From: Cristatella mucedo
Taxonomy: Eukaryota; Bryozoa; Phylactolaemata; Cristatellidae
Reading direction: 5' to 3'
Length of the DNA: 64,000 bases
Assembly (NCBI GenBank): GCA_009760855.2
Contig: WPIO01000001.1
Span: forward strand, 8,153,501-8,217,500
Part shown: positions 19,054 to 54,106 of the stretch, piece after piece
Position numbering within the stretch: position 1 is the stretch's first letter
Layout: each line of letters starts with the position of its first letter
The notes under the pieces: generated by a model
What the model was told of the DNA's origin: nothing
Database searches by the model: none
The model's input: only the letters and a program-made list of their open reading frames with translations
Position numbers and translations under genes: made by a program

Positions 19054-21364
19054 ATGGCGTTGAAGGTAAATACAGTTGCTAGTTTCATCATTCGGGTTAA
19101 GCTGTTTAAGTTAAAATTGTAGTCTGTCGACAATTTAGTGAGAGAAGTGGAGTCATCATGATGATGTAAACGTTAAAGGTCAAGTAAGTACAGAAGCTGA
19201 CGATTTGACACAGCGTAGGGTGTGTGTTTTTTGTTGCAGCAACTTCTACTGCTTCTTTCGACTGCCGAACTGGTCCTTAACATAGCCCAAGTAAGACTTA
19301 GTTTTTGGAGTCAATGGCCTTGCATGCAAAGAGGTCTTCATGCAGATTCTTGATAAAGACTCTTCTTTGTGCATACAGGCTGGCTACCTGCAGTGCCCAA
19401 AATTTACCTGTGGGCTTTGTGAGTTTGAATCGATGAGCTCTAAGATAGCCGCACTTGGCCGTCCATGTAACACCAAGAGCGACTGTGGTCTGTACGAAGT
19501 GTGCTGCTACAAGGCTCCTCATGGATCGTTTTGCACCAAAGGTGTTGACCCGTATCCACGTGATGGTAAGACATTTATTTGTTAAAGTTCAGTTTTGTGC
19601 CTTCCACTAGTTAGGCTAATCATTCGTTGGTCAACAATATGGGGACCATGCATGTGACCAATTGAGTATACCTCAAACTGGTGTGTCAGTTTGTTTTTGG
19701 ATGGTGGTTATTGTCACCTAATAATGGCAATAATAATAGAACATTTTACATAGCAACCTAAGAGACCTCGATCTCTTTCTGGGCTCTTTACAATTTTTGA
19801 CCTGAGTTTACCTATATTTGATGTCCTAAAACAGGCTGATTGATGTGAGAAGTGGCGAATATAGGAAAGAAAAACTCAGTCCTGGTTATAATGTAGTATG
19901 TAAGCATTACCAAGGTCTGTTTCTAGAGTATTGCACCTAAATTCCCCAAATCAAAGACAAGCTATATATACTTTATTATTTGCTAAGATATTTTAGTAAC
20001 ATCTAGAAGTAGCATTGAATACCGTGCAACTCCTTATAAATCATAGCTGTGGTTAGTATCATAGGGCTCTGTACCTCAAAGTCAATATGGGAATTGTAAA
20101 AAGTCTCTCTGAAACTAAGGTTAACTTTAACAGCTTAATTTACCCTGCTCCTGCGAGGGTTCATTCACACTTACTCGTTCACTAATAAATATAATTAGAT
20201 ATGATTGGCATAAAATTAATAAAACACACTGATTACTGAAATTTTAAAGTACACTCGTTTAATTTGAAGATGGATTAGAGAAGACTAAGCATTAATAGCA
20301 GCAGTATCATGAGAAAATCATAAGGTAACAGCGTCAATTGAGGAATACTTAAAGTGGTCCGCCAAAATGGTTAGATCAGATAAGCAAGGTGTGAAGGGGG
20401 ATGAATAAGCAGGCCGACAGCTTGATCAGTAGATCTAGGAATGGTTTTTCTTGCAACTGTCTGCACGTTTGCTGTATTACTGCTGCAAACTCCAGAAACA
20501 CATGATTTTGTAGACTCTCTTGAAAAGAGCTTGTGCCACCACATGTCTTGCTGGGATCTTACTCGTACTAATACTTTCATTTATGTTTACCTTGAAAGGC
20601 TCATTTCCTCAACAATCTCATTGAATGGACGCTTGTTCAAACTATCAGAATTTATATTGAAATCCGAATACTGTAAAGGGTATTTTATTAATAAACTATT
20701 TATTTTCTCATTCAGCACTAAACTTTTAAGTCGTCATTGGTTTATTCCAAGCCAAATAATTTTTTTAGTGCTTCAAGCAATACACGAAATGAGTTGGTAC
20801 TCACTAAACTTAGTTAAATTTTTTATTCTCTTTTCAGGATAAAGAAGAATAGATTTTTGTATTCAATTAAAAGATAACAAATGTATAATTGGTATAATTA
20901 CATACACACACATATAAAAATATATTTGTATATAGGTAAGAATTTTAATACAATATATATTATATAAAAAAGCTCACATATATTAAACTGCATGCCGTTT
21001 TATTTAGTCTTGCTCAGCTGCAGCCACACTTAATTGCTTAACTAACTTGGATTTCGACCAGCAACATAAATTCACTGTTTTAAATTTGCATGCAGGAAAA
21101 GGACAAATGAGCATTAAATTGCAAGTTCCCTCTTACATTTACTAGTTAATAAATGGTACTGAAAGTATTTATACTTATATATTTGCTAAAATTGTAATAT
21201 GTTTCTCTTAAGGTGTCTGCCCAGCTATACAAGAACTCTCTCTAGAAGAGTACTTTCTTCAATGCCCAGCTGACTACGGCGGCGAATGCATATACGATGA
21301 AGAATGTACCGGAAAGCAGAAGTGTTGTAAACAGCCATGTGGATACCAATGTATCAATGTATAG
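19054..21364 (+). CDS. secreted WAP-type (four-disulfide-core) protein, gene copy 1
   Basis: The four exons are 19054-19065, 19240-19290, 19379-19565 and 21213-21364, encoding 133 residues. All introns are GT-AG (AAG|gtaaat, ttgttgcag|C, CAA|gtaaga, catacag|G, GATG|gtaag, ctcttaag|G), with phases 0, 0 and 1. Exon 1 gives MALK; exon 2 gives 17 residues with a hydrophobic core (QLLLLLSTAELVL), so together they make a signal peptide. Exon 3 encodes eight cysteines, including a C-x5-C-x5-CC core (RPC..SDC..VCC), a variant WAP domain. Exon 4 is a full WAP pattern: C-x14-C-x7-C-x5-C-x5-CC-x3-C-x3-C, ending CINV and a stop. WAP proteins are secreted protease inhibitors or antimicrobial proteins; which applies here is unknown. 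The start was chosen because the ATG, its donor and every exon length recur in copy 2. Gene prediction by single open frames would miss exons 1 and 2 and wrongly start exon 3 at 19340. Confidence 0.8.
19735..19800 (-). mobile_element. LINE B / SINE 1 tail fragment in WAP gene 1 intron 3
   Basis: 'taagagacctcgatctcttt' followed by 'ctgggctctttaca' after an ATA-rich lead matches the inverted terminal block shared by LINE B and SINE family 1. It is only the last 60 bases. Confidence 0.5.
20441..20842 (+). other. 133-codon open frame in intron 3, status unknown
   Basis: Lies inside the third intron of WAP gene 1, in a stretch with no counterpart in the paralogous intron. It begins with a hydrophobic, signal-peptide-like segment (MVFLATVCTFAVLLL) and ends with further hydrophobic stretches. 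I recognise no domain. AT-rich DNA yields such frames by chance, so I do not call it a gene. Confidence 0.15.
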
Positions 21365-21445
21365 ATTCCTCTTGCAGAAATCTCATAAGGAGTTATACAG
21401 CAATCTGATCGGAATGATTTACGTATACAAGAATGTCGGGCTTTA

Positions 21446-21451
21446 AATAAA
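21446..21451 (+). promoter_or_regulatory. polyadenylation signal AATAAA of WAP gene 1
   Basis: Canonical AATAAA 82 bases after the stop codon, in a conserved 3' UTR. The aligned position in copy 2 reads 'aattgtaaa', where the hexamer is lost; the nearest alternative there is ATTAAA at 54155-54160. Confidence 0.55.
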
Positions 21452-22309
21452 AATTTGGGCTTCCCAACTCGTGTTGCAGTCTCAGAAAAGGATTTTTCCA
21501 CTATTACAGCGAATTATAAAATGACTATTATATCGGTAAGATAGCACGTCTGCTTTTTCAGTTTGTTTTTATTGGTGAACTCACATTTTCAAGGGCGTAT
21601 CTAGGTCGATGAGGCTGAAGTACGGCAGCTGTCGCGACAATTACGCAACTATACTTAAGCATCTTTACAACATCGCAGGCAAAAAATGATTTTGGGGGCT
21701 TCTCTACGACAGTGCATTAGCGGAGAAATTTTGGCTAAATGTTTGGTGCAAGCATTTTAGGGTAGTCGGTCAAGGTACTGCAAGCCGTTTAGCCTAAATG
21801 TGTCACGCTACTGTTTATCGCGATAGCTACGCGTTCTCTACCTTATTGCTCCATGGAAAGTGTTTATTTCTTAAAGGTTGCCTACAAAAGCTTAGCGAGC
21901 GTATCCGAAAGGAGCATCATCCAAGGACCAATACCAGCATGTGTAGTTACTGAATATTTTTAAAGAATCGAGCCTTCCAATATTTTACTTCTAGTTTTAA
22001 TGTCAGTCACTTGGAAGTTTTGCTTGTTCATAACCACATGGCCACGAAGTAAAACATTCGTCTCTATGCCATGTGCAAGAGAATATTTTTTTTTTAAATT
22101 GCGAACAATCATCATATTCACTAGGCAGTCTGTGACACCTTATACCTCAAGCAGATAACTGATACACTGTTATAAGAAATTTAGCTAGGAAAGGCTAGCA
22201 ATTTATCTCCTGTAGCTTCGTAAAGCCAAGCGGTGTTACGCAAGATAACTGTATCCAGCGGCGGAGCCAGGATTGTTTTATGAGTGGGAAAAGCCAGCAG
22301 TAAAAATGA

Positions 22310-22395
22310 AAACGCTAAAAATGATAAATTTGTTCTAGCTCACTCAGAGAATTCAATCTATTTCAATGCACTTTACGTAAGCTGCAAGTGCACAT
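22310..22395 (-). mobile_element. LINE B 3' tail fragment
   Basis: 'ctcactcagagaattcaatct' then 'gcactttacgtaagctgcaa' matches the inverted 3' terminal block of LINE B (compare 44180-44240). The copy is very short. Confidence 0.5.
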
Positions 22396-22439
22396 AGAAC
22401 AAACCACCAAAAAATAGCTTAGCTTTTCAGAAACGGGTA

Positions 22440-23800: not shown

Positions 23801-23959
23801 TTAATAGCGTGACTTATGATAGTGCTGAACAGGCAGATGACTGTAGTTAGTGCCTATTCACAGCAAATATAGCAATTTGTGAATGCCTTGAGCGTGCCGC
23901 TCAAGAAGACCTGTTGTCGTATACCGAAGCGATGATCAGGATCTAGCAACTAACACTCT

Positions 23960-25165
23960 AATTCTGAATCGCGATCCTAAGAAATTAGCAATCCTGCTCT
24001 CAAGTAATAGAGTCAATCACTTCAAATGTACGAAATCGGGTAATCGGGTTAGATGCAAATCCCTTCCCATTAAAAAATCGTCGACGGCCGGAAAACGCCC
24101 TATTTTGGAGCTGTATGTGACTAATACGAGTTCTCCAACAGCTAATGATTTCGCAGCTTCTAAAAAGACACCTTGATTTAGCACCCACGATTAGGTCTCA
24201 AGAACACAATCGCTTTTAGCAAGCAAGTTCTACCAAACGAAATAAAAAAAGAACAAACTATGATTACCCATAAGTGAACAAATATCAATCCCAACTAACA
24301 TTGACTTTTAAAGGATAGCCATTGTATCTCCGTCTGTAACTCCACAAAGTCATAAAGACCATGCGGGTGTTATGCAGGAGAGTTTTGTATAGCACACTTA
24401 CAGCCTAGGCGGCCTTCAGTACGCCTTCCGTAGTCACCAGACTTCGTCTCATGCAACAATGAGAAAGTGGGAAGCATAGCAGAGCCAGGAGAGCAGTTGA
24501 GGTAGTGAGTGTCATGAAAGTAGAAGCTCAGGATCACTGAAAAGGATGTGCCATAGTCGGCAGTAGGAGAGTAGTTGTCGCTGCGTAAGAATTGTGGAAG
24601 CGAATTCCACACTCTAGGACCTGCAGAGCTAAAGCTTCTATCGCCAACTGTCTTTAAGCGGAGGAATGGCACAGCTAATTTATTGTCCACACAGGACCTG
24701 AGGGCACGAACAGGCTGAAACTGATGCAGCAGGTCAGCTAGGTACGAAAGAGCCAAGCCATGGCGGGCCCTGTGGGTCAGCGTAAGAACTTTGCTCTGTA
24801 TCCTTTGCTGAACCGGCAACCATCCTAGCTCTTCCAGCAAAGGTGACACGTGCTCAAACCGCTGGGACTTGAAGACCAGCCTTGCAGCCATATTCATAAT
24901 CCGCTGTAGTGGCATAATAGTTTTCTTTGGCAGCCCAGCCAAAAGGGAATTGCAATAATCAAGCCAAGACAGAACTAAAGAGCTAGTTAAGTTTTTTACA
25001 AGCCACTGTGGGAGACAGCTCCTAATCTTGTGGAACATTACCGTGTAAAAGAAAAAACCCGTGTGAAAGAAATGAGTAAATTAAAAAAATATAGATTTTA
25101 AGGCATTCCAGAAATTAAGTATTGCAAATATATTCTCTCACTAGTAATAATTTTCAGCTGAACGG
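23960..25165. repeat. duplicon D, copy 2 (interrupted by LINE A)
   Basis: Collinear with 6950-7465. Homology stops near 24328 ('agccattgt') and resumes near 25040 ('aaaacccgtg'). The intervening sequence is a LINE A copy, which gives a natural empty-site comparison. Confidence 0.6.
24330..25040 (-). mobile_element. LINE family A, 5'-truncated copy
   Basis: The minus-strand frame 24370-25038 encodes the C-terminal part of the family A polyprotein. It includes 'SLVLSWLDYCNSLLAGLPKK', 'AARLVFKSQRFEHVSPLLEE', 'LGWLPVQQRIQSKVLTLTHR' and 'RSFSSAGPRVWNSLPQFL'. It is open over 222 codons, better preserved than the 12-15 kb copy in this part, and truncated at 25040. Confidence 0.9.
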
Positions 25166-25237
25166 ATGAAGAATGAGAGAGAGATAGAGGCAGCGGGAAA
25201 GAGGAATAGAGAGAAAGGAAGAGAATGAATGGGAGAT

Positions 25238-25538
<301 letters not shown>

Positions 25539-25734
25539 AGAAAGGCTGGAGGCGGATATTTACAAACAGCCACCCAAATCAACGGCTATAACTCAGGTGC
25601 AATCCTACAAGCAGACATTAAAGAGTCTTTAATATAGTGAGAAGATACACTTAAAGCCAAAACGAGGTTTTCATGACTTCAGAGGAGCCCAAAGGGAAAA
25701 TGCTTAACCCCCTCTTCTACCGAGCAGTTCTTAT

Positions 25735-26455
25735 CCGAACTTGGACAGCCTGACGCAGCTCTGTGCATTTCTGACATCCCATCTCGACTTCTGTAACGCA
25801 CTGCTTGCTGGCTTACCGGCATGTGTAATCAGGCGCTTACAGCTGACAAAAAACTCTGCAGCTAGGCGTGTCTATCGTGAGCTTAACAGTTGGCACATCA
25901 CACTACTTCTCGCCGACCTACGCTGGCTACCAGTCAAGCAACGGATCGACTTCAAGTTTTTGTTGCTCACTTTTAGGTCACTTCATTTTTTGGCTCCAGC
26001 CTATCTTTCAGATCTACTTCCCCACCAGAGCAAGCATCTTACAACTAACTTTTTGGAATCCAACAGTTTAACAATACCTCGTACAAATCTCAAATCCTTT
26101 GCAGACCGTTCATTTAGTTTGTATGATCCCAAAGCCTGGAACTAAATCCAAAATCACCTGAATTACCCAAATCGGAAAAGAACTTAAAAACCTATTTTGG
26201 ACAGCATTTAGTGGGTCCCTGTGATTCGTCCTTCATGTGCTTTTGCGTGCTTACACCGTGCATGCTGCCACTAACCACACTTTCATGCTGACCTTGTGCA
26301 TGTCACCCTTAACGATGTTATTCATGTTGTTTATCAAGCATGATATTACTCACCATTCAATCGCATTTCCCTTGGCAACAAATGTAAAGCACCATAAAGG
26401 ACATTGAGTTCTCAGAGGGCACTTTATCTAATGCATTATTAATATTAGCTCACTG
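25735..26455 (+). mobile_element. LINE family B, 5'-truncated copy
   Basis: The frame 25741-26145 encodes 'FLTSHLDFCNALLAGLPACV', 'LLLADLRWLPVKQRIDFKFL' and 'SFADRSFSLYDPKAWN', the C-terminal part of the LINE B reverse-transcriptase ORF. The 3' UTR follows ('catgctgcca', 'aaatgtaaagcacc') and ends in the terminal block and 'attattaatatta' tail near 26455. Confidence 0.88.
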
Positions 26456-26459
26456 ACTG

Positions 26460-30789: not shown

Positions 30790-31213
30790 ATGATTGCAAA
30801 GTTAAATGCCGTTGCCAGCTTCAGGTTATTAGGAACGGTTCTACCTAAAATCATAGGCTTTGGCAGCATGCTTGTGTTGTAGCTACTTTTACTGCTTAAA
30901 TTGACTGCTGATTTGGTCCTTGACGTAACCTAAGTATGGCAAGCATTTGCTGATGGAGTCTACCACATCGCATGCGAAGCGGTCTTTATTCAGATGCCCG
31001 ATAAAGACTCTTGCTTTTCATTGCTCATACCGGCCGGCGACCTGCAGCGCCTGAACTTTTCTTCAGGAGTGTGCCATTTTGAAGCGGAGAGTGATTTGAT
31101 AGCAGCACTTGGCCGTCAGTGCAATGCCAGATGCGACTGCGATCCTTATGAATTATGCTGCTACAGAGTCCCTCGTGGATAGTTTGGCACTAAAGGCATG
31201 AATCCACGTGATG
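30790..31213 (+). pseudogene. WAP-type gene, third copy (dead)
   Basis: Exons 1-3 of the WAP gene are recognisable at 30790-30801, 30883-30933 and 31033-31213. Lesions compared with the two intact copies: exon 1 donor GT to TT; exon 2 last codon CAA to TAA; exon 3 acceptor AG to CG; at least three cysteine codons lost; TCG to TAG in the 'HGSFC' equivalent (stop ending at 31182); a two-codon deletion; and exon 3 donor GT to TT. Exon 4 is not found downstream. Flanking homology runs from about 30670 to about 31900. Confidence 0.8.
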
Positions 31214-33905: not shown

Positions 33906-34504
33906 AATAAAAAAGTCAGCAGCAATCGTAAGATTCGTTCGCACGAAGAGAGAATCATATGGAAATATTCAACTTTGCTAAGCTTGCGTTTAAGAGTTTC
34001 AGCCAGAAGGACCAAAAAGCTGCAAATTGCTGTAGCGAAAATGGTTAGATAAAATATCTTCCCTGGCATAACCAAGACCTTCATTAGAGGAAGAAACTTT
34101 AATGCTTCATTTAGCTAGGGAATATAGGATTAAAAGTAGATTTGCTGAACGCTTGATTATTTAATGTCACGATCCTTCGTGATCCTTTGTCTGTATATAG
34201 ACCGCTTCCTTCGCTGGCAAAGGCCTACGAATCTGATGTCTTTGCTCCTCGAATGTACTCTAGCACTTTCTGCCCCTTGGCATCTATTCGCCTTTCCGTC
34301 TTGAGGACTGGATACAAACCATTTAGTATGATTTCCTTCAATACGCATGCATGTAAAGTCTGAGAGTCTGCACTTATTTGATTAATTTCCAGCATTAGCT
34401 TTTTGTCGTTTTAAGCTAAACTATAACCGCTTCTGTTTTGTTACTGCTTCGTGACCCCAGTGAACTTGTCTAGTTGTTGATGTGTGCTAAAAGTGTTTAG
34501 TGTG

Positions 34505-35990
34505 CCACAGTCTGGCTTTAGAGCCAATCACTCCACAGAGTCAGCATTGCTTCGGGTATACAACGACCTACTTAGGAATGCAGACATGGGTAGAGTGTCT
34601 CTGCTTGTTTTGCTTGATCTTTCGGCAGCTTTTGATACCATCGATCACAAAGTTCTTCTAGAGCGCCTCTCATCTCGCCTGGGCATCACTGGCACTGCTC
34701 TACAGTGGTTCAGGTCCTATCTCAGTGGGAGACTCCAGAGTATTGACGTGAATGGACAAAGATCATCTGAAGTACCTCTGAAATATGGAGTACCTCAGGG
34801 CTCAGTGCTAGGTCCGGTTCTTTTCACGGTTTATACTCCGCCTCTTGCTGATGTGATTGCCAAGCACAATCTAGGCTTTCACTTCGATGCGGATGACACT
34901 CAGCTGTACCTTTGCTTTGATCCCTCCCAGCCTTCTAGCACCTCAAATCCTCTCAACTCACTTGCTGCATGCATTGATGACATCCGCACATGGATGGCAG
35001 CAAATTTTCTAAAACTTAACGATGATAAAACTAACTTACTAGTTATGGGCAAACCCAGTGTGATCCAGGTTGGAAAGGCTGACTCTCAAAATTGGCTCTG
35101 CCAGCATATCTCCAGTTGAATCAGCTCAAAATCTAGGTGTCATATTCCAAAGCGACCTCTCGTTAGACGAACACATCAGCTCCAGAGTCAAATCCACCTA
35201 TTTTCAGCTTCATAACATTGCTAAAATTCGGGCCTGTTTAGATAAAAATACCACGTCCAAGTTGGTCCATGCATTCGTGACATCTCGTCTCGACTTCTGC
35301 AACTCACTGCTCACTGGCCTACCAGCATGCGCGATCAGGCGATTGCAGCTGGTGCAAAACTCGGCAGCTAGGCTTGTCTGTCGTGAGCGTCGCACTTGCC
35401 ACATTACTCCACTTCTCGCCGACCTGCACTGGCTACCAGTCAAGCAACGGATTGACTTCAGGTTTTGTCGCTCACTTTTAGGTCCCTTCATTATATGGCT
35501 CCAGCCTATCTGTCAGATATACTACCCCATCAGGCTAAGCATCGTACCACCTGCTTTTCGGAATCCAACAGTCTAGAAATACCTCATACAAACCTTAAAT
35601 CCTTTGGAGACCGTGCATTTAGTTCGTATGCTCCCAAAGCCTGGAACTCCCTCCCGACCTGCGTCAGAACATCCCCCGACCTGACCACATTTAAAAGGAA
35701 CCTAAAAACACACCTATTTAGGACAGCATTTAGTGGGTCCCTGTGATTCGTCCTTCATGTGCTTATGCGTGCTGACACTGTGCATGCTGCCACTAACCAC
35801 ATTTGCATGCTGACCCTGTGCATGTCACCCCTAACCATATTATTCATTTCGTTTGTTTTTTTCAAGCATGATTTTACTTACCATTCAATTGCAGTTCACT
35901 TTACAGCAAATGTAAAGCGCCTAGAGAGAGATTAAGTTCTCTGATGGCGCTTTATCAAGTGAATTATTATTATTATAATTACTATTCCCA
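34505..35990 (+). mobile_element. LINE family B, best reverse-transcriptase copy
   Basis: The frame 34484-35119 carries '[20 protein letters not shown]', '[20 protein letters not shown]', 'YGVPQGSVLGPVLFTVY' and 'FDADDTQLYL'. The last is the catalytic box, with D replacing the aromatic/Y of (Y/F)ADD. A frameshift near 35065 moves to the frame 35070-35576 and a second shift to 35465-35746. The C-terminal 'AFSSYAPKAWNSLPTCVR' and 'LKTHLFRTAFSGSL' end the ORF. The 3' UTR closes with 'gcgcctagagagagattaag', 'ttctctgatggcgctttatc' and an ATT repeat. It is 5'-truncated, with no endonuclease. Confidence 0.92.
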
Positions 35991-36510
35991 GGCTGCAGTA
36001 ACCGGCCCTGATTCTCTGATGTATATCTTAGCCCAAGGGTGTGATCAGTGCTCTCTGGTATCTAGGTCTTGTGTTTGAGTACTGTAGTGGGCGACACCTT
36101 ATTGCTAAGTATAATCGACGTTGACAGCCTCTAAGGATCTCTTGCCGCTGCAGAATTTTAGCTTTTGAGTTGGTCAAGATTGTACACTGTGTGCTTTAGC
36201 ATGCACCTATCAGGTTGCATATAAATGCATACATTTACATGCTTGAATAAGAATGAACCAGGCCTATAGTAAATTCCATTAACCCTTAGTTAATATTTTC
36301 TTGAAACGAGTTGCATGGCACCTTAGTGCCTTCAAGAAACATGTCAGGCAAAGTTAAAATAGCAGCTGAAATTAAGCAAATTCGCCCTCAATAGTGTCCT
36401 GTCAATATATTACTGTTCGCTTTTAAATGAGTGATACGATCGGTAGAGATATGTTGGTCAATATCAAGCAGATTCCTTCTTTGAGAATAGATTCACTGGG
36501 GGATATGCAG

Positions 36511-36531
36511 TATATATATATATATATTTAT
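36511..36531. repeat. (TA)n then (TATT)n microsatellite
   Basis: A short TA run passes into TTTA/TATT units beside the tail of the next LINE copy. Confidence 0.8.
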
Positions 36532-36554
36532 TTATTTATCTATTTACTTATATA

Positions 36555-37960: not shown

Positions 37961-38475
37961 CATTTATTCATCAGCAAAGAAAGTGCGCAACTGTTTGACC
38001 TGAAGTGATATCAGGGTAGTAACTCAGCTAAGTGTTGCAAAGAAATTGATTCACTGTTTGTGATTGTATTTGGTCTTACAGGCATAATTTTACTTTTCCA
38101 GCCAGAAAAAGAAAGCTAGCTTTTTTAAGGTTCCGGATATATCAAAGACAAAAGTCAGCAAAACTGGCTAGATCTTGTTTGGACCAGACTTCTTAAAGTG
38201 GTGCTCAAGCTTGCGTTTTTCTTAGCTTGTATGAGCTCCATGACTAACACTTTAGACAATACCGTAGTCGTTCACATATTCATAAAGAGAGCGCCTAACT
38301 TATGCTACAGTCATCAACTTTTTTGTTTAAGTCTCAGGTAATTTATAGTTACAGCCATAAAGAAGTAGACTCAGATGGTGGTATAAGGTATGCAGCAACC
38401 AGAGAAGGACGTCATCGATTAATTGGTCAGAAGAATTGCATCGTTTCTCCACGACCAACTGATTATTTTTAGCAG

Positions 38476-40430: not shown

Positions 40431-40992
40431 CCTTTAGCCATTTTGGCCTCTCTAAATTTGTCCATGCATTTGTGACATCCGTCCTGACATATGTAATTCA
40501 CTGCTCGCTGGTCAGCCAGCATTTGCTATCAGGCACTCACAGCTGGTGCACAACTCTGCAGCTAAGCTTGTCTGTCGGGAGCTTCGCAGTTGCAGCATCT
40601 CACCACTTCTTACCGACCTGTACGGGCTTCCGATCAAGCAAGGCATCGACTTCAAATTTTCCTACTCAATTTTAGGTCCCTTCTTTCTCTGAGTAGACTT
40701 CCTATCAGATCTACTCTCCCACTTGACTACGTATTGTACCACCAGCTTTTCGGAATCTTAACTGTTTACAGACACCTCATATAAATCTCACATTAAGTGG
40801 AGACCTTGCCTTAGTTTCTATGTGCCCAAAGTCTGGAACTCACTCCCGAATTGCATCACGACATCTCCTGCCTTGAGCACTTTAAAAAAAAAACTAAAAA
40901 CGCACCTACTATTTCACAGCATTTAGAGGGTTCTTGTGATACACTCTTTATGTGCACAGAGTGCTGACAACGTGCATGGTAACCCTAACTAT
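40430..40992 (+). mobile_element. LINE family B, left half of a split copy
   Basis: Shares 'ccatgcatttgtgacatcc', 'accgacctgtacgggcttcc' and 'agtctggaactcactcccg' with the copy at 35.2-35.7 kb, then the 3' UTR to 'gtgcatggtaaccctaactat'. The 3' UTR continues 4.85 kb away at 45844. The last four bases, CTAT (40989-40992), are the target-site duplication. Confidence 0.85.
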
Positions 40993-41247
40993 TGTAACTC
41001 CGAATTCGCGGCGGAGTAGGCGTAACTTGCTGCCAACCGGGGTAGCCGATGAAAAATGTTAAGAATTGCTAATTTATTTGAAGTGTGTACATTAAAATAT
41101 AAACTAATTATAAATGCTATCACAAATTTTGGTGGTTGTCAGATGACTGGAACATGGTCAATAAAAATGTTATCAAAAACCTGTATAAACTAGAAGTATC
41201 ATCGAGCTCAACTAAATAATTTTCTTTGAAAATAACTATAAAAAAAT

Positions 41248-41533: not shown

Positions 41534-43050
41534 TGTAACGCCGAAGGCTCGGCGGGGTAGGCTTGACCAGCCGCTTACCTTGCGGCGTAGCCTATCGCCT
41601 AATGCCGTTCGGTGCGCGCCTACACGCAATAAGCTGGCCGCCACGAAACGAGCGTTTCTGGCGCTGACCTGCCTACCGTTACTAAAGGGGGTCGTGAGTC
41701 CGCGGCGTGAATTGGAAGCGAGACACACAGATTGGGGATTTTACTGAACTTTATTCGCAAGCGCACAAAGTCGTTGCGCGTCTAGTTCAGCTTTATCTCC
41801 ACACTCCTCGCACGTTCTCAACTGCACCAACGCTCTTGCGGAGGGAATACTCCTCCACACTAAGCACGACCCGGACCCTAAACCCTAACCGGTGAACTAG
41901 GAATCCGTTCCCACCTGTGCCGAGGGAATACCCCAAACACGCCAACTTATACACTCTTGTGGAGGGAATACTCCTCCGCACTGAAGCGCATACCGGAGTC
42001 TAAACCCTGACCGGTGAACTAGAACTCGGTTTCCAACAGTGTGGCAGGAATACTTCACACACGCCACCTCGAGCACTCTTGCGGAGGGAATACTTCTCCA
42101 CACTGGGGCTGCTTACGAGTATAATGGGAAACGACCCAAATAGATGGAGCCCGAACCAGAGTCTAAACCCTGACCGGGAACTAGAACTCGGTTTCCACCA
42201 GTGCGGCAGGAATACTCAACACACGCCAACTCAAGCACTCCTGTGGAGGAAATACTTCTCCACACTGAAGCGCGAACCGGAGCCCAAACCCTACCCGGAG
42301 AACTAGGGCTCCACAGACGCCAACTACGCCTAGCTCGCACCGGCAAAACTCTATGCCGAGACCACGTGCTAGCGCGAACACACAAAGCACGAAAGAACAC
42401 AAAATGCCAGCCCGGGCGCGATACGACCGTTTTCGGTGGAGTTCCACCGAATCCTCTTAGAGCTGTCTCGTCCTGTTCCGTCCATCGTCGGCGGACAGCC
42501 CGCCCTCCTCCCTCGCTTTCAGAGAAACGAGTGCCCGACGGCGCCGAGGCGCAGAGCCGGACCAAAGACAAAAGACACCAGGCAAAAGACCCAGAGCGAG
42601 CGTCGCTCGACTCTTAAATACTTGGCTGAGACACAATGGGGCAAGAGCCCAGTGGTATTGGGCCCGACACCATGGCCCATTACGGTGAGGAATTAATACC
42701 GGCACTAGGCCACTGGAATGTCCCCTCTGTCCAGCTTGAATGGCGAATGGGTTCCACACGATTCTTTCTGGACAGAGTGATAGCGAAGGTTGACAGGACA
42801 GTCAACATCAATCAGCCGCTCCCGCTGGTATCGGACCAATTCTAAAGGCCGACTCGCCACCGCTGGTCAGGGAGCTTCCTGGCTTGCTCTTAAGCGCTTC
42901 CTCTCTAACTGCACTGACGCTCCTCTCTGCTCACTGCAACCGCACTGACGCTCCTCTCTGGCTCACTGCTCCAGGACAAAGTGGCTCTAGCCCGGCGCCG
43001 AACAGCTCTTGTTCGCGCTAAAATTCAGCCAAGGCCAGCAGGGCGCTACA
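41534..43050 (+). mobile_element. LTR-like unit 1 (1517 bp, TGTAACGCC...GGGCGCTACA)
   Basis: Termini form a short inverted repeat (TGTAACGCC against the complement of GGGCGCTACA). It aligns over its length with 44651-45843 in the same orientation; anchors are 'gccacgaaacgagcgtttct', 'ttggggattttact', 'tatgccgagaccacgtgc', 'cagcccgccctc' and 'actcttaaatac'. It is GC-rich compared with the surroundings. 'tcttaaata' near 42612 could serve as a TATA-like element. The long minus frame 42113-42571 has no recognised domain and I treat it as non-coding. Flanks show no obvious target duplication. Confidence 0.6.
41831..42315 (+). repeat. 121-bp minisatellite inside the LTR-like unit
   Basis: The motif 'ctcttgyggagggaatac' followed by 'tyctccacact' starts near 41831, 41952, 42073 and 42237. 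The first two steps are 121 bases; the last is 164 because about 43 bases are inserted ('gcttacgagtataatggg...'). The rest of each unit contains 'ccggagtctaaaccctgacc' and 'tagaactcggtttcca'. The paralogous unit at 44651-45843 has fewer, more diverged units, which explains most of the length difference. Confidence 0.75.
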
Positions 43051-43714
43051 ACAACAAGATCATGAAAGAGTAAACCCCTTATCGGCTGGGGCCTAATCTC
43101 CCCTCAGCTTCCCCGCCCCGCCCACAGCAACCAGCTGCAGACGGCATTCCAAGGCCCACTCCTTATTTATTTGGCAGAAACATGCTTAGATTGGTATGTT
43201 AGCATCAGATCAAAAACCGGAAGTTACTGTCGTTTGGCCAGTAGACGAACATTAGGGATAATATATTGAGAATTTACTGCTTAAGGGGCCGCCGTAACTA
43301 AGGAGTCCATTGTCACAGCACCGCATGAATTCTGGGACAGCTGATGCAGTTCCGGTAGCCCACATAACGCACGAGGCTTCGGCCGCGGGTGAGACTTTGT
43401 ACGGCGGTCGGTCAGCGTGGTGGAACTAGCGCGTCGTTTACTGGAAGCCAGTCGGAAAATGTTGATTCATTTCTATTCAAGGAAATTTAGGTGATTTCAA
43501 GTTCTCATTTATGTCGTTAATAGTTAGATATTTGTATTGGCGAATGCTGGTGAGCCGCCCTGCTGTAGCACGGATTGACAGCCTGTGGTATGAGACCCAT
43601 CGCGGATATGTTCTGCTTAGGCTGTATACGGATCTTGTTAGGTTGACCTATTCCTAAGATCCATGTTGATCTATTTATTGAATGATGTCTTGGTCCTCGT
43701 CTAAACGTGGTGCA

Positions 43715-43900
43715 GCATGAAAATGTGGTTAGTGGCAGCATGCTGTCACTTATGAATCTATATCTGTCCTAAATAGGTATGTTTTTTAAGTTTCTTTTAA
43801 ATGTGGTCAATGATGCAGGTCGGGAGGGAGTTCCAGGCGATACGAACTAAATGCACCTTAAGGTTTGTAAACTAGACTGTTTAAATACGATGCTTTGCCT
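43715..43900 (-). mobile_element. LINE B fragment
   Basis: 'aaaatgtggttagtggcagcat', 'gtcctaaataggt' and 'ttttaaatgtggtcaa', then 'cgggagggagttccaggc', follow the minus-strand LINE B order with deletions. No intact frame. Confidence 0.65.
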
Positions 43901-44149
43901 GATGTCCCACCAGTGATACTTGGTACCTCATCAATTGTGCAACTTGGTCGATACTGGGCCGATCTGTCTGAAATTTGGAATGTAGTTCGTGCTCACCTGT
44001 TTCCACGTTCCCCCATGTGCATCTAGGCATAAAGGGTGTGCATGCATATCATGTTCCTGTCACAAAATGTTCCCGGGCTATGGTTCCTGGGCTATGCCAG
44101 TCAACAGTTTTAGTTGTCGAATTTTTTATATTTTTGTGTGCGGTGGGGT

Positions 44150-44345
44150 TAATAATAATAATAATAATAATAGTGCACTTGATAAAGTTCCCTCAGAGAA
44201 CTCAATCTCTCTCTAGGTGCTATACATTTGCTGCAAAGGGAAATCATTTAATAATAATAATGCACTTTATAAAACTCCCTCAGAGAACTCAATCTCTCTC
44301 TAGGTGCTTTACATTTGCTGCAAAGGGAAATGCATTTGAACGGTT
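44150..44345 (-). mobile_element. tandem pair of LINE B 3' tails
   Basis: Two units of the inverted LINE B end, at 44173 and 44260 (period 87), each comprise an AAT run, 'tgcactt.ataaa', 'ctcagagaactcaatctctc' and 'ctgcaaagggaaat'. This is either a tandem duplication or two insertions into the same AAT tail. Confidence 0.8.
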
Positions 44346-44650
44346 AGTTAGCTTGGAGTCGACTGTCATGCATCTTTTGAGCGGTTTGCCCTATTTCTAC
44401 AATGACTGGTAGTAAATCTGGGCGATTTGGTGGTAAAGCCATATATGTCTGAGCTGCAGTGTTATACGTTACCTTGGACTTGTACAGGTCATCAGAAGGT
44501 CAAGACGGCAGCTATATCACATCAAACGATAGCTTATTTTACCAGTGTTCTCTGTGCCAATTTGTATGCCATTCATTTTATTGGTCTTTAGACGATATAA
44601 ATAAATGTTCTTTAGTGGACAACTCACACTATTTGTGGCCATTTTGTGGG

Positions 44651-45843
44651 GATAACTCCCACTACTGGCCGCCCTACCCCCTTACCTAGCTGAGTAGCCT
44701 ACGGTCGAATGCGATTCCGTATGTGCCTAAGCGCAAAAGCAGGCCGCCACGAAACGAGCGTTTCTGGTGCTGACCTACTTACCGTTACTAAAACGGGTCG
44801 TGAGTCTGCGGCGTGAATTTGAAAGAGACACAAATTGGGGATTTTACTAAGCTTTTTTCGCAAGCACACAATGTCGCTGGGCGTCTAGCTCAGTTTCATT
44901 ATCACAATCCTCACAAGCTCTTAACAGCACAAGCACTCTTGCTGAGGAAATACGTCCCAGCACTTGGGCTACTGATGTCTATAGTGAGGGAACGAACCAA
45001 ATAAGTCGAGGAGCCCGAGTAGGAGCCTAGACCCTAGACTGGAGAACAAGGGTTCAGCTTCCACCGGAAAGGTTGGAATACCTCACACGGTACACCAAGC
45101 GGTAGTGCGGAATGACCTGAATAGACGAAGGAGCCCGAACCAACGGAATATCTCACACACCACACCAACTACGTCTAGTTCGCACCGGCAACTCTTTATG
45201 CCGAGACCACGTGCGAGCGCCCACACAAAAAATAAACACAAAATGCTAGCTTGGGCGCGATACGACCGCATTTGGTGGCGTCCATTGAATCCTAGCAATG
45301 TCTCGTCCATCGCCGGCGAACAGCCCGCCCTCTTCCCTCGCTTTCAAAGAAACGAGTCTGACGGCGTGAAAGCGAAGCCGAAGAGAGAAAGAAAGAGAGC
45401 AAGAGCTTGAACAAAAGACCCGAAGCGAGCATTGCTCTACTCTTAAATACCTTGCTGAGACAATGGGCAAGAGTTTAGTGGTGACAGGCCGGGCACCACG
45501 GGCTGTTGCGGTAAAGAATTAATACCGTCGCTCGGCCACCGAATGGGCAACCCCGTCCAGCTTGGATGCCAAAGAGGCTTCGAGCGATTCTTTCTGGACA
45601 GAGTTATGGCCAAGTTTGACAGGCAAGGCATCATCAATCAGCCGCTCCTGCGGGTTGCAGACCGATTCTAAAGGTCACATTGCTACCGCTGGTCCTGGAG
45701 CTTAGTGGCTCGCTCTTAAGCTCTTGCTCTCTAGCCACACTGGTGCTCCTCACTGGCTTTCTACTCCAGGACAGAGGATTTTTTGCCAGCCGAAAATTGC
45801 TTGTTTACGCAAAAAATTAAGCCAAGGCCAGTGCGGCGCTCCA
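44651..45843 (+). mobile_element. LTR-like unit 2 (3' end of the insertion)
   Basis: Diverged paralogue of 41534-43050. It is preceded by 'tgtgggga', a short purine-rich stretch where a 3' LTR's polypurine tract would lie. The start is mutated (gataactcc). It ends GCGCTCCA directly before CTAT. The minisatellite is contracted. Confidence 0.55.

Positions 45844-47173: not shown

Positions 47174-47175
<2 letters not shown>
46600..47175 (+). mobile_element. LINE family A, degraded reverse-transcriptase fragment
   Basis: Follows 13890-14430 of the fullest copy: 'aggagcttgtctcgtgaaga', 'tggttcggccc', 'cagcttgctgaaga', 'cacaactcacctgaaactac', 'gaacaattgagtacaactgc'. All frames are broken. Confidence 0.6.

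Positions 47176-47242
<67 letters not shown>
47175..47242. repeat. (TA)n microsatellite
   Basis: Pure TA for nearly 70 bases at the end of the degraded LINE A fragment. Confidence 0.97.
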
Positions 47243-47245
<3 letters not shown>

Positions 47246-47537
47246 CCGAATATTCAGCTTAATATTCAACTTTTAGCGGTTTCTTGCTTCTGCGTTTATT
47301 ACCTTATCGCTTATTAAAGTCTTTACTTTGCTTCCTTTCTCTAACTAGCCTGCTTATGGAACTCCTGCATGGTCTGCCTGCAATCTGACCATAATAATGA
47401 TACGGACTATGCACACGCAGAATCGAAGTAGGTTGCCAGGGCTGGCGTCTTACATTGAACCTTACAGCGAACTCTCAGCCTAATACTACTAGCTTTAAAA
47501 AATGAGTAGACTAGCCTAACTCTGATTAAATCCTACT

Positions 47538-48557
47538 GCAGGTCTCTTCTACAGAGTCCGAGTAATTTCTGATTTTCATCACCAATAATCAGCAAAGTAA
47601 AAATAATTCGTACTGTAATTTAGAAAGTTTATGGTACTGAACAAAGCTCGCAGCTCGGCCGGCCATTTTACAACTCTTTTAAGAACTTCTTTTAAGCAAC
47701 TCAAAAGGTAGACTCCTTTATAAAATATTGCTGCTATGAAACCTCAAACCGATCACTTGCGTCTATCTTGCAACTTTAGTAGCTCCATTAAAGAAAAAAC
47801 ATGGCTGGCTTCCCGAAGAAAAACCTCGGAGTAGCAACAACTGCTATCTTCTAGAACAACTTATTAGTATTGTATATGCAGGTCTCTTCTACAGAGTCCG
47901 AGTAATTTCTGGTTTGTATCACCAATAATCAGCAAAGTAAAAATAATTCGTACTGTAATTTAGAGAGATTACGGTACTGTACAAAGCTCGCAGCTCGGCC
48001 GGCCTTTTTACAACTCTTTTAAGAACTTCTTTTAAGCAACTCAAAAGGTAGACTCCTTTATAAAATATTGCTGCTATGAAACCTCAAACCGATCACTTGC
48101 GTCTATCTTGCAACTTTAGTAGCTCCATTAAAGAAAAAACATGGCTGGCTTCCCGAAGAAAAACCTCGGAGTAGCAACAACTGCTATCTTCTAGAACAAC
48201 TTATTAGTATTGTATATGCAGGTCTCTTCTACAGAGTCTGAGTAATTTCTGGTTTGTATCACCAATAATAAACAAAGTAAAAATAATTCGTACTGTAATT
48301 TAGAGAGATTACGGTACTGTACAAAGCTCGCAGCTCGGCCGGCCTTTTTACAACTCTTTTAAGAACTTATTTTAAGCAACTCAAAAGGTACACTCCCTTA
48401 CAAAATAATGCTGCTCTGAAACCTCAAACCGATCACGTGCGTCTCTCTCGCAACTTTAATAGCTCCATTGAAGACAAAACATGGCTGGCTTCCCGGAGAA
48501 AAACCTCGGAGTAACAACAACTGCTATCTTCTAGAACCGCTTATTGGTATTGCATGT
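47538..48557. repeat. three tandem 340-bp units
   Basis: Units are 47538-47877, 47878-48217 and 48218-48557, each beginning 'gcaggtctcttctacagagt'. No open frame and no terminal repeats. Unit 2 equals unit 3 at most informative sites of its first third and is identical to unit 1 over its last 207 bases. Single copies are not seen elsewhere in the window. Confidence 0.93.
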
Positions 48558-48879
48558 TCAATTATTGTATCTACTAAACTTGTAATAACAGATAAAATTT
48601 ACGGGATATTGTATTTGACTACCTGAAGCTGAAAGCTTAGAACTTGTCTTTTTGCTCCGTATAGCTGTTCGTCTTCTCTGGGGTTCGAGGTTGTTGCACC
48701 TAATGAAAGACGCTTACTTTGAATTGCTAAAGCGATTCCTCACTTTCCGACTTCTCTCACGTTGCTACCTAGTGTGGGTGCACATATAGTTGACGCTTTT
48801 AGATCAGAATTCATTGTTTATTTTGTTCGGTTCAAATAGTACCTCTCACTAGACGGTAACATCATCCCAACAGCCAAGT

Positions 48880-49130
48880 CAGCCTACTTTCAGCTACGTA
48901 TAATGCTACTATTCTGGCCTGCAGAGATAGTGATGCTGTCGGTCAGTGATGTCACAATTGCCACTTCGCACCACTACCAACCTGCCCTGGCTCCCATTAA
49001 ACCGCGCATCGACTACATGGTTTTGTCACTAACGTTTTGTGCCCTATATTCTCTTGCAGCAGCCTACGCAATTAAACTACTCCAAATCAGGCTGGTAATC
49101 TTACTATCGTTCTTTTGACTCAGGTCCTCA
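48880..49130 (+). mobile_element. ancient LINE B-related fragment (paralogue of 16395-16790)
   Basis: The frame 48903-49118 retains the sense of the LINE B C-terminal region at nucleotide level ('ccattaaaccgcgcatcgac', 'ttgtcactaacgttttgtgc'). It is shared by both duplication copies and therefore older than the duplication. Confidence 0.55.
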
Positions 49131-49188
49131 AGTCTAGCTTCGTACCTACTTTAAACTTTCGGTGATTGCATCTTTAATACATACGATC

Positions 49189-49292
<104 letters not shown>

Positions 49293-49374
49293 TCATATAT
49301 AGGACTTTCTCCAGTAAATATGGTGTCAAAAGCATTAGCAAGTAACACCGAAACTTTAACGGCATCATTTTTTT

Positions 49375-49510
49375 GAGCGGCGGAAGAGCCTAATGACGAT
49401 CACCACCTCTTTCACCTCTTTCAGTTAGCAACTAACTATCATCCACTGTAATATTTGAACCCACGAAATTGGTCATAAAGAGCGAGCGCCAAATCACCTA
49501 TTCAAGTGCA
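49375..49510 (-). mobile_element. SINE family 2 copy
   Basis: 'gaagagcctaatgacgatca' then 'ccacctcttt' and 'atttgaacccacgaaattgg' then 'tcataaagagcgagcgcc' match 59026-59140. The central 'atttgaaccc' is the complement of a B box. Confidence 0.55.
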
Positions 49511-50331
49511 GCCCCGTTGATCCTCATCCGGTCACTGACCCAGCCGACAGCTGGCGTACGACGTTTATACCGTGGGGTGGACAGAAAGTGACCTCGTCGT
49601 TTGTCACCGTGAGTAATAACAAATGGCTGAAAAAGGCAGGTTTCAGGGCGATGGGATGACCAACTGAGTAAAGTGTAGGGCCACGGTTGAAGTTGGGCAT
49701 CATGGTATGTGGAAATATAAAACGAAACCTGATAAGCGAGAACAACGAGAGTTTAGTTCTGGCAAGCTGCTCTGCTTGCGTTGGGTGCTAACGAGAAAAC
49801 GAGATTAGCTTATAATAATGTTAGGACGTTTCTAAGTTTCCTTGGTATACATTCATGTGGAAATGGGTAGGCCGAATAGCTGCGACTATTATTAAACTGT
49901 TAGGCTAGCTTTCTTGCACAATCCTGTCCAGAATGACATGGATTATGGGAGCATGCAGCGAAACCTTTACTTTCTCGATGAGTAATGCATTGATATTTTG
50001 GCAAGATTATTATCAGTTACTTGGTGATATTAACCTGAAGCCTGAGATGAAATAACTGCGGCCAAAAATCACAATATATAGAGGCCGAAGTGATCGATAG
50101 TCAGTGGTATTTTATGCCTCCTAGCGGTCGCATGTGGTCCTCTTCGGCTATACCATATAGTGTTATGCTTCACTTAACTTGAGCTAATTACTAAATATCG
50201 GGCTTCTTGACGGCTGCTGACAGTGAGCGTAACTCACAAAAGCGTAATCCATTATACGTTTAGCTACCTCAGCTTCAAGACTATAGCTAAAAAAAGGTTT
50301 ATTCGAGTGTCGGCAATCTCTAGAATGTATA

Positions 50332-51895
50332 ATATTAAACATAATAATGTACTTGATAAAGACCGATCAGAGAACTCAATCTCTATCTAGGTGCTTTTCC
50401 ATTGCTGCAAATGGAAACGCGATTTAATGGTGAGTCAAATCCTGCTTGATAAATAATATGAATAACATGGTTAGGGGTGACATGCACATGGTCAGCATGG
50501 AAATGTTATTAATGGCAGCATGCACAATGACAGAACTCATAAGCACATGCAGGACGAATAACAGGGACTCACTAACTGCTGTCCTAAATAGGTGTGTTTT
50601 AAGTTCTTTTTAAACGTGCTATAGTCAGGGGATGTTCTGACCCAAGTCGGGAGTGAGTTCCAGGCTTTGGGAACATACGAACTAAATGCTCGTTCTTCAA
50701 AGGATTTGAGGTTTGTACGAAGGAGTGGCTAACTCTTGGATTCCGAAAAGCTGATGGTACGATGCTTGCTTGGCCTGGTGGGGGAGTAGATCTGAGAGAT
50801 AGGCTGAAGCTAAAGAATGAGGCGACCTAAAAGTGAGCGACAAAACCTTGAAGTCGATCCATTGCTCAACTGGTAGGCAGTTGCAAGTCGGCGAGAAGTG
50901 GTGTGATAAGGTAAATGAGACCCTCACGACAGACAAGCCTTGCTGCAGAGTTTTGCACTAGCTGTAATCGCTTGATAGCACATGCCTGTAGGCCAGCAAG
51001 CCGTAAGTTACACAAGTCAAGAAGGGATGGCACAAATGAATAGACCAACTTAGGCGTGGTATATTCATCTAAACAGGCCCGAATGCTAGCAATGTTATGT
51101 AGCTGAAAGTAGGCAGACTTGACTGTGGAGCTGATGTGTTCGTCTAACGAGAGGTCACTTTGAAACATGGCAATTATATTTCGAGCTGGTTCAACAGGAG
51201 ATATGCTGGTTTAGGTAGCCGATTTTGAGCTTCAGCATTTCAAATTTCTGAATCACACTCGGTTTTCCGATTACTAGTTAGTTAGTTTTATCATCCTTTA
51301 GTTTTTGAGAAAATTTGCTCACATCCATTCGCGGATGCCATCGATGCATGCAGCAAGTGAGTCGAGAGAATTCGAGGTGCTCGAAGGCTGGGAGGGAGCA
51401 AAGCCAAGGGACAACTGAGTGTCATCCGCATTTAAGTGTAAGTATCGATTGGTGCTGGCAATCCGATCAGCAAGAGAGGGAGTATAAACAATGAAAAGAA
51501 CCGGACCTAGCACAAAGCCCTGAGGTACGCCGTATTTCAGAGGTACTTTGGATGAACTTTGTCCATTCACGTCAGTACTCAGCGGTCTCCCTCTGAGATT
51601 CGACCCGAATCATTGCAGAGCAGTGGCAGTGACGCCCAGGCGAGATGAGAGGCGCTCTAGAAGAACTTTGTGATCAATAGTATCAAAAGCTGCAGAAAGA
51701 TCGAGCAAAACAGCAGAGACATTATACCTATGTCTGCATTCCTTGGTAGGTCATTGTAAACCCTAAGCAATACTGACTCTGTGGAGTGATTACCTCTAAA
51801 GCCAGACTTGAACTTACTAGCAAGGAGTGAAGTTTGAATGTATGATTTCAGCCGGTCCGCCACGACCTGTTCCGGTGTCTTCACAAATTATGCCA
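50332..51895 (-). mobile_element. LINE family B, 5'-truncated, inserted in the duplication
   Basis: The 3' tail lies at 50332-50345. Reverse-transcriptase pieces are on the minus strand at 50697-51168, 51319-51570 ('VPLKYGVPQGFVLGPVLFIV') and 51657-51884 ('ADRLKSYIQTSLLASKFKSG', '[20 protein letters not shown]'). It reaches slightly further 5' than the 34.5 kb copy. The paralogous segment is uninterrupted near 18565, giving the empty site. Confidence 0.92.
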
Positions 51896-52383
51896 ATTTT
51901 ATTTCAATAACCTTGGTCTGAAGCAGCTAATATGCACTCCAGGCTAAAAATCAATTCATCTAACATGCTTAACTTAAACTGTACTGCGATGGGTCGACGG
52001 TGAGTGACAAACACGAGTAATACGTGAAACCATGACGAATACTGTCAGGCACACTTGGCTTGCAATAAAAAATAGTAGATGATAATTCTTGAATAAGAGG
52101 GCTTCAATGGCAGCTGCGCGTAGTGATTCCAAAGTCCTATGCTAAAAGCATCACCAGAGGTGCAGCCTCAGACGATCGGGACGTATTGGCTGGGTTCCAT
52201 TCTAGCGGGCCATAAAATGCTCACTAGTACCGGGTAAAAAAGCTGAGTCAGACGTCCCGTGCTGGCACCATCATATTTTCCTCTTACGCCTCAAACGCAG
52301 GGCAGTCGAGCCATCCCCCATAGCACCAATTGCTAATCAATCGCATACGAAGTGAGAAGTGTACAGTTCCTCAACTGACTGGT

Positions 52384-54106
52384 ATGGCGCTGAAGGTGAA
52401 AACGTTGGCAGTTTTCAGCAGCTTTGTGACGCTGTGCAAGTTAAATGTGTGGTGTTTGACAGATAAGTGAAAGCTCAGTCGTGGTTGGAATGCAAACGTT
52501 GTGGGTAAAGTAAATACAGCAGCTGATTGTTTGACGCACTGTAGACTGTGTTTTTCTTCGTTGCAGCAACTTATATTGCTTCTTACGACTGCCGAACTGG
52601 TACTTGACGTATCAGAAGTAAGCTCTTTAAGCTTGTGCTGTTTCTAGTTTCCAGAGTATCGCATGCGACACGTTTTCAGGCAGATGTTCGATGAAGAGAC
52701 ACACTAACCTCTTTGTGCAAACAGGCTGGCTACCTGCAGTGCCCAATATATACCTGTGGGCTATGCGATTTTGAAACGGAAACTGATAAGATAGCCGCAC
52801 TTGGCCGTCCCTGCCATGCCGAAAGCGACTGCGGTCTGAATGAAGTGTGCTGCTACAAGGCGCCACATGGATCGTTTTGCACCAAAGGTGTGGACCCCAA
52901 TCCACGTGACGGTAAGAATTGTAATGGAAAAATGAAGATTTTTTGTCTACCGTATGTTAGACTCAATAACCGTTGGTCGAAAATAGGGTGACCAAGCATA
53001 GGCATCTTGGAGCATAACTAATACAACAATCTAAGCTTTTCCTTGGACGTTGCTTATTGTCACCTACAGTTGACGTTCTGAAAAAAGACTCAATAATGGG
53101 AGCAGTAAAGAATATGGGCTTAAATTTGGTAGGAAAAGTTCAGTACAGTGTATGTAGGTAGCCCTTAAGCATTCCCTACATCTGTTTCTCGAGTATTGAG
53201 CCTAAATTCCCTCATCGTAGAAACGGGATATATATAGTTTCTTCTGTGCTAATTGCTTGTAGTCCCGGCTGTAAGTATTAGTTAAGATCGTGCGATTCGA
53301 TATGAGTCATAGCTGAGGTTGGTATCATGTGGCTCTGTAACTTAAATAAAGTCCCCTATAGGAATTTTAAGCAGACATTCGGATGCTACGATTAATGTCA
53401 ACAACTAAATGTACTCAGCTCGAGTTAAGTTTCAATTGCACTTATTCAAGCAATGCATGATAAACTTTGATATTGAACCACTAAAATGAATAAAACGCTC
53501 ACCTTAGTAGCTGCTCAATGTAAATGCGTTCAATGAGAGGACGGATTAACAGCCAGGAAGAAAAACGAGTACCTCAATACTTAGCAAATAAATAGCTGCG
53601 GTGTTGTTTTAGAAATTGTTTAAATCTATTAAACAAAACATCATTCACTTGTATAGCACTCATAGAGAACGCAAACTCTATTCAGGTTGTTCACATATGC
53701 CGTGCTGATCTAGAGCCCACGATCTCGACTGTCATATGCATTTACCTTGACTTGGTCGGAGCGAGCACCTTGATCGCTTAAACTGCACTTAATTGCTTAA
53801 CTTTGTTACATACCAGCAAAAGAATTTGCTGTTTTAAATTCATATGCAATAAATTACAAAAGACCATTGCATTTTAAGTTGGTTACGTTTGCTAGCTATG
53901 GAATGCATTTGCATTCTAATTTCTCGTTGAAAATCTTGATATGTTCTTCTGTAGGTTCATGCCCAGCTGCACAAGAACTTTCAACAGACGAATATTTTAC
54001 ACAATGTGCAGCTGACTACGGTGGAGAATGCATATACGATGATGAATGCGCCGGAAAGCAGAAGTGCTGTAAACAGCCATGCGGATACCAATGCATAAAC
54101 TTGTAG
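52384..54106 (+). CDS. secreted WAP-type (four-disulfide-core) protein, gene copy 2
   Basis: The exons are 52384-52395, 52567-52617, 52725-52911 and 53955-54106, encoding 133 residues. All splice junctions are GT-AG (AAG|gtgaaa, cgttgcag|C, GAA|gtaagc, caaacag|G, GACG|gtaaga, ctgtag|G) with phases 0, 0, 1. The signal peptide is MALK plus QLILLLTTAELVL. Exon 3 carries eight cysteines and differs from copy 1 at 12 of 62 residues. Exon 4 is a canonical eight-cysteine WAP domain ending CINL and differs at 9 of 50. No cysteine differs between copies. The likely role is a secreted protease inhibitor or defence protein, inferred from the family only. Intron 3 contains a SINE. Conserved reading frames and splice sites amid diverged introns argue that both copies are under selection. 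Confidence 0.82.
53640..53790 (-). mobile_element. SINE family 1 copy in WAP gene 2 intron 3
   Basis: Plus-strand order 'tatagcactcatagagaacg', 'ctctattcaggttgttcaca', 'gagcccacgatctcg', 'gacttggtcggagcgagcac' and 'cttgatcgctta' parallels 17455-17602. There is no counterpart in intron 3 of copy 1, where flanking homology is continuous near 21045. Confidence 0.75.

Follow-up and report, generated by a model that had tools for sequence, protein, structure and literature searches.

A probable cluster of small two-domain WAP genes with a variant first domain in the bryozoan Cristatella mucedo

We analyzed a 64,000-nucleotide window of the Cristatella mucedo genome (positions 8153501-8217500 of contig C111 in the 572-Mb assembly GCA_009760855.2, against which all genome searches were run). 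The window harbors two intact four-exon genes and a decayed third copy, and each intact gene encodes two cysteine-rich domains, the second of which is a WAP (four-disulfide-core) domain. We consider it reasonably likely that the locus is a cluster of small two-domain WAP genes, possibly protease inhibitors, in which the first domain is a rewired variant of the WAP fold.

Gene models and constraint

The exons of the two intact genes (copies 1 and 2) and the remains of copy 3 are as follows.

19054-19065, + strand: copy 1 exon 1, 12 bp, phase 0; MALK, start of the putative signal peptide
19240-19290, + strand: copy 1 exon 2, 51 bp, phase 0; hydrophobic core of the putative signal peptide
19379-19565, + strand: copy 1 exon 3, 187 bp, phase 1 out; variant WAP-like domain 1
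21213-21364, + strand: copy 1 exon 4, 152 bp; eight-cysteine WAP domain 2 and stop codon
30790-31213, + strand: copy 3, decayed pseudogene with remains of exon 1 (30790-30801), exon 2 (30883-30933) and exon 3 (31033-31213)
52384-52395, + strand: copy 2 exon 1, 12 bp; MALK
52567-52617, + strand: copy 2 exon 2, 51 bp; core of the putative signal peptide
52725-52911, + strand: copy 2 exon 3, 187 bp; variant WAP-like domain 1
53955-54106, + strand: copy 2 exon 4, 152 bp; WAP domain 2 and stop codon

The two models of 12, 51, 187 and 152 bp, which had been proposed in an initial annotation made from the sequence alone, are exact. All six introns are bounded by GT and AG and lie in phases 0, 0 and 1, and each model gives one open, stop-terminated frame of 133 residues. 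Exon 2 contains no ATG in either copy, so the start codon must lie upstream. We therefore listed every open phase-0 stretch of up to 150 bp running from an ATG to a GT in the region from the beginning of the duplicated block to exon 2 (18562-19239 in copy 1 and 51884-52566 in copy 2). This yielded 12 candidates in copy 1 and nine in copy 2, three of which align with each other between the copies; of these three, the 12-bp exon has the best donors (AAG/GTAAAT and AAG/GTGAAA, with the slash marking the exon end). There are two competing candidates: a 42-bp alternative starting at the same ATG is common to both copies, though its donors are weak, and a wider scan found an unshared copy 2 candidate (51348-51356) with a donor at least as good, though inside a fragment of a long interspersed nuclear element (LINE). 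Exon 1 is thus the least certain part of the gene models, and the comparison lends the 12-bp form support rather than proof. Downstream of the genes, copy 1 has an AATAAA at 21446, 82 bases past the stop codon; copy 2 has an ATTAAA at 54155, and its first AATAAA in the ~1.1 kb scanned is at 55017, such that 3' processing may differ between them.

The initial annotation counted two copies; there are three. Copy 3 retains traces of the first three exons, arranged as in the intact genes, with a shorter intron 1, and its homology to intron 3 extends to ~31790. In-frame stop codons interrupt it at the end of exon 2 and in exon 3, 6 bp are deleted, the donors of exons 1 and 3 are altered, and three of the eight domain-1 cysteines are lost. 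Its nonsynonymous distances (dN) to the intact copies are 0.26 and 0.25, compared to 0.12 between the intact copies over the same codons. No exon 4 of copy 3 was found in the window or among the scored genome candidates, where a badly decayed one could escape. The cluster is composed of two intact copies ~33 kb apart with a dead copy between them.

Comparison of copies 1 and 2 revealed 27 differences over 133 residues, six of them within the first 21 residues and the other 21 within the 112 that exons 3 and 4 encode. A recount confirmed the earlier statement that all cysteines are spared by these 21 changes (16 of 16), which has a chance of ~0.03 if the changes are spread at random over the 112 residues. 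The exons are 81-92% identical (82% for exon 2), compared to 55-69% for the introns, 68-73% for the 5' flank and 67-71% for the 3' flank. We counted 34.5 synonymous and 33.5 nonsynonymous differences, corresponding to a synonymous distance (dS) of 0.563 and a dN of 0.116. The resulting dN/dS, a check named in the initial annotation, is 0.206 (bootstrap 95% interval 0.112-0.351; none of 1000 replicates reached 1), in agreement with two working genes; by part, it is 0.50 for the signal-peptide codons, 0.22 for domain 1 and 0.12 for domain 2. With exons more alike than introns and a dN/dS of 0.21, both copies look like constrained coding genes.

The products are probably secreted, as judged from their N-termini. 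The best nine-residue Kyte-Doolittle mean in this stretch, a measure of hydropathy only, is 1.91 in copy 1 and 1.99 in copy 2, and small residues occupy positions -3 and -1 in both copies if cleavage occurs before GYLQC. Exons 1 and 2 would accordingly encode a signal peptide that is cut at this site, just before domain 1.

Altogether, we hold with high confidence that copies 1 and 2 are real, constrained and secreted genes. Duplicate decay does have a precedent at this locus in copy 3, and a pairwise dN/dS is blind to which branch was constrained; that either copy 1 or copy 2 is itself a pseudogene, recent or silent, is nevertheless very improbable, because the frames and junctions are free of lesions in both, every cysteine is kept, and at a dS of 0.56 a long-unconstrained branch should push dN above the observed 0.12.

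The two cysteine-rich domains and their relatives

Domain 2 has its eight cysteines at residues 86, 101, 109, 115, 121, 122, 126 and 130 in both copies, in the order C..C..C-x5-C-x5-CC-x3-C-x3-C. A search of the genome with the Pfam WAP family (PF00095, cut-off 20.8 bits) revealed five exons: exon 4 of each window gene (34.7 and 33.2 bits), one exon on contig C659 and two on contig C518. The initial annotation held that the two genes could be recovered only by cross-comparison; this is true of exons 1 and 2, but exon 4 of both emerges from this plain search. A profile built from five WAP sequences of this genome matched anosmin-1 (E 4.5e-5) and elafin (E 0.001) in the PDB. The two C518 exons (29.6 and 29.5 bits) lie 3.6 kb apart in the stretch C518:1395500-1405400 (L014) and represent another WAP gene or gene pair; the signature of the variant domain 1 described below was not seen in this stretch.

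Domain 1 is different. The Pfam check suggested in the initial annotation separates the domains: domain 2 of copy 1 alone passes with 35.8 bits, whereas domain 1 scores 11.0 bits in copy 1 and 10.7 in copy 2, below the cut-off. Its pattern in copy 1 is C-x4-C-x2-C-x15-C-x5-C-x5-CC-x8-C. Compared to the WAP pattern, cysteine 7 is missing and an extra cysteine stands near cysteine 2, making a CxxC (C32-C35 in copy 1). The earlier description of an unusual WAP variant with a non-standard end had captured the missing cysteine but overlooked the extra one.

A genome search with domain 1 of copy 1 returned six matches, namely the three window copies, one chance match and two loci on C659, termed P4 and P5.

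C659:1214592-1214783: P4 domain 1, E 5.8e-5 with copy 1 domain 1 as query
C659:1180252-1180437: P5 domain 1, E 0.64 with copy 1 domain 1 as query

P4 is, on sequence grounds, firmly placed as a distant relative whose two domains follow each other in the same order. The exon for its domain 1 begins in phase 0 and ends in phase 1, at the donor AAG/GTGGGA, and this domain outscores all of 1000 cysteine-preserving shuffles in the comparison with each of the window copies. A 2479-bp intron follows, in which every reading that would directly join the domains meets stop codons. As in the window genes, the start of the domain-2 exon completes a glycine codon; it reads G-R-C-P, and the domain is WAP by Pfam (32.5 bits). 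This exon lies in a long open frame (8090-8758 of stretch L012) with an Ala/Pro-rich C-terminal extension that has no counterpart in the window genes.

P5 is a probable relative of the same kind. Its domain 1 outscores every one of 1000 cysteine-preserving shuffles in the comparison with copy 1 and 999 of 1000 in that with copy 2, AG and GT occupy equivalent positions and phases, and its domain 2 beats 1000 of 1000 such shuffles against copy 1 in a local match of 23 residues. Several results count against this placement. Both P5 domains lie in one open frame, which does not require the 105-bp intron, and the donor of this intron (CGG/GTTCGA) is weak; Pfam does not call P5 domain 2; and as genome queries, P5 domain 1 found neither the window genes nor P4, and P4 domain 1 did not find P5. 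Queries with P4 domain 1, P5 domain 1 and copy 1 domain 2 gave no further member among the scored candidates, and four intact genes is a lower bound, as the genome searches score the best candidates only. Repeats of the window recur on C659, with up to 95.7% identity over 1483 bp in a LINE, so this contig is most likely not a contaminant.

In the four intact genes, all eight domain-1 cysteines are invariant, even though identity to copy 1 is as low as 33% in P4 and 32% in P5, and domain 1 ends in CC-x8-C in each instead of CC-x3-C-x3-C of WAP. The recurrence of this pattern in two distant genes indicates, as far as sequence comparison goes, that domain 1 is a conserved module and not the product of drift within the window pair.

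We consider it quite likely that domain 1 is derived from WAP. Alignment of the domain 1 profile with WAP using hhalign matched the core from cysteine 3 to cysteine 8 (E 8.9e-5, probability 59.6), and the score of 24.5 is higher than any obtained from 200 cysteine-preserving shuffles (best 23.3) or from 200 full column shuffles. At E values up to 10, Pfam gave a single family, WAP below threshold, for domain 1 of both window genes; for P4 and P5 domain 1, it reported no family. The same data leave some room for another small cysteine-rich fold, prokineticin- or colipase-like or new, that reached C-x5-C-x5-CC by convergence. Such a fold would fit a domain that is not WAP at the Pfam cut-off in any of the four genes and lacks cysteine 7, and it would fit the search of the PDB with the domain 1 profile, which gave no WAP chain but weak and unrelated matches, a result that tells against a WAP origin. 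It is nonetheless unlikely, as the Pfam matches to domain 1 of the two window genes include no colipase or prokineticin family, and none of the 400 shuffles reaches the score with which the core aligns to WAP.

For a WAP-derived domain 1, we tentatively propose that the bond between WAP cysteines 2 and 7 is replaced by one inside the new CxxC (C32-C35 in copy 1), with the other three bonds unchanged; this model is attractive but would not surprise us if wrong. A broader proposal, which we regard as rather doubtful, is that domain 1 represents a separate, unnamed WAP-derived family with the signature CP-x3-C-x2-C-x15/17-C-x5/6-C-x5/7-CC-x8-CT. Its second disulfide would have moved into the CxxC; it would precede an ordinary WAP domain, occupy an exon of its own with phases 0 and 1, occur phylum-wide, and fall below the cut-offs of domain libraries.

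Duplicated units, repeats and other features

Self-comparison of the window revealed that the two intact genes lie in duplicated units that match in several blocks; the given extents are minima.

16242-22090, + strand: duplicated unit 1, matching 48722-54832 in several blocks
48722-54832, + strand: duplicated unit 2, with a LINE fragment (about 50330-51882) upstream of the gene that has no counterpart in unit 1

The blocks on either side of this fragment abut at 18560/18562 in unit 1 but end at 50330/51883 in unit 2. The LINE fragments of the window, this one (50329-51883) included, belong to one or more families and have ~70-89% mutual identity; the others lie at 11011-15660, 24060-26450, 34480-37970 and 40450-41000, and some of the window fragments encode endonuclease (PF03372) and reverse transcriptase (PF00078) domains. 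The copy in L012 with 95.7% identity to a window copy suggests that the family moved fairly recently. In the spacer before copy 2, at 47537-48552, a 340-bp unit is repeated three times in tandem with 95% similarity. A repeat family at 41571-45755 consists of a 122-bp tandem array and related blocks (41830-42306; 42072-42929 versus 44932-45755), with more copies in L012. On the - strand, an open reading frame at 62594-62884 matches the final part of the ATP-binding domain of ABC transporters (PF00005; 32.0 bits against a cut-off of 25) and presumably resembles an ABCC-type exon. Elsewhere in the assembly, cox1 on the 21-kb contig C688, taken as mitochondrial, has TGA at expected Trp, AGA/AGG at Ser, ATA at Met and AAA (two codons) at Lys positions, a usage that we take to be the invertebrate mitochondrial code. 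This code fits a protostome invertebrate best and makes a vertebrate, tunicate, cnidarian or sponge improbable as the source.

Possible function and comparison with known systems

Domain 2 would adopt an ordinary WAP fold and most likely inhibit a protease through the loop between cysteines 2 and 3, which reads CPADYGGEC in copy 1 and CAADYGGEC in copy 2. The inhibitory bond of SLPI and elafin has as its P1 residue the one that follows cysteine 2. Assuming the same placement here, P1 would be Pro in copy 1 but Ala in copy 2; since the copies differ at this putative residue, they may differ in protease target.

Protease inhibition is our first choice of main activity, ahead of antimicrobial and matrix roles, a preference drawn from the sequences that we rate as slightly less likely than not to be right. 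The size and layout of the proteins match Es-DWD1 of crab, which is reported to be both antimicrobial and protease-inhibiting (PMC3742519), so that they might instead act mainly as antimicrobial effectors of the crustin or double-WAP (DWD) type. This is improbable, since the mature proteins are acidic, with charges of about -4 and -9 to -10 and isoelectric points of 4.9 and 4.4, whereas crustins are described as cationic (PMC7401287), and neither a glycine-rich nor a crustin-type cysteine-rich region was seen by eye. Being acidic, cysteine-rich and probably secreted, they could also be extracellular-matrix or mineral-matrix proteins that use the WAP fold as a mere scaffold, and WAP domains are mentioned in work on octocoral skeletal proteins (PMC11959691) and on abalone shell matrix (PMC6003135). 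Inspection by eye revealed no repeat, acidic run or matrix domain in them, and we rate this role as improbable as the antimicrobial one.

In layout, the proteins resemble DWD proteins, or type IV crustins. Es-DWD1 has 136 residues, a signal peptide of 22 and two WAP domains, of which domain II is better conserved (PMC3742519); the present proteins likewise comprise ~135 residues, with a putative signal peptide and two WAP-type domains, the second nearer to consensus. Unlike DWD proteins, they are acidic, and in their domain 1, WAP cysteine 7 is absent and another cysteine is added. In addition, 14 residues separate cysteines 1 and 2 of domain 2, compared to 5-9 in the shrimp formula, and the strict formula finds no match. 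DWD proteins are defined by a signal peptide and two WAP domains; here, one WAP domain exceeds the Pfam cut-off and the first is a sub-cut-off variant in the same layout. By analogy, copies 1 and 2 may work like DWD proteins.

Among human WFDC genes, 14 of 18 are clustered on chromosome 20 (PMC11408880). The present locus resembles that cluster in being a set of tandem paralogues of small WAP proteins, and differs in its non-canonical domain 1 and in a putative signal peptide divided between two tiny exons. A single exon encodes the signal peptide of SLPI and that of elafin.

Tandem WAP genes are common in animals, and the pair alone changes little. As tandem paralogues and double-WAP proteins are both already known, the novelty lies at most in the domain variant. 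Its possible importance is that genes at about one third identity still share eight cysteines in a non-WAP pattern. If the disulfides are as proposed, a four-disulfide core can shift one bond yet keep its fold, and the locus flags small secreted genes that domain searches may miss, with tiny first exons that gene finders may skip. The closest parallels to this variant come from the atypical crustins Ia-1, Ia-9, III-1 and crustin VII of Litopenaeus vannamei, in which WAP cysteines are altered, the second and seventh being mutated or two extra ones present (PMC7401287). A coupled change at cysteines 2 and 7 has a precedent in three shrimp crustins (PMC7401287). Unlike those crustins, which lose both bond partners, the domain 1 described here loses cysteine 7 and gains one near cysteine 2, so that the total stays at eight.

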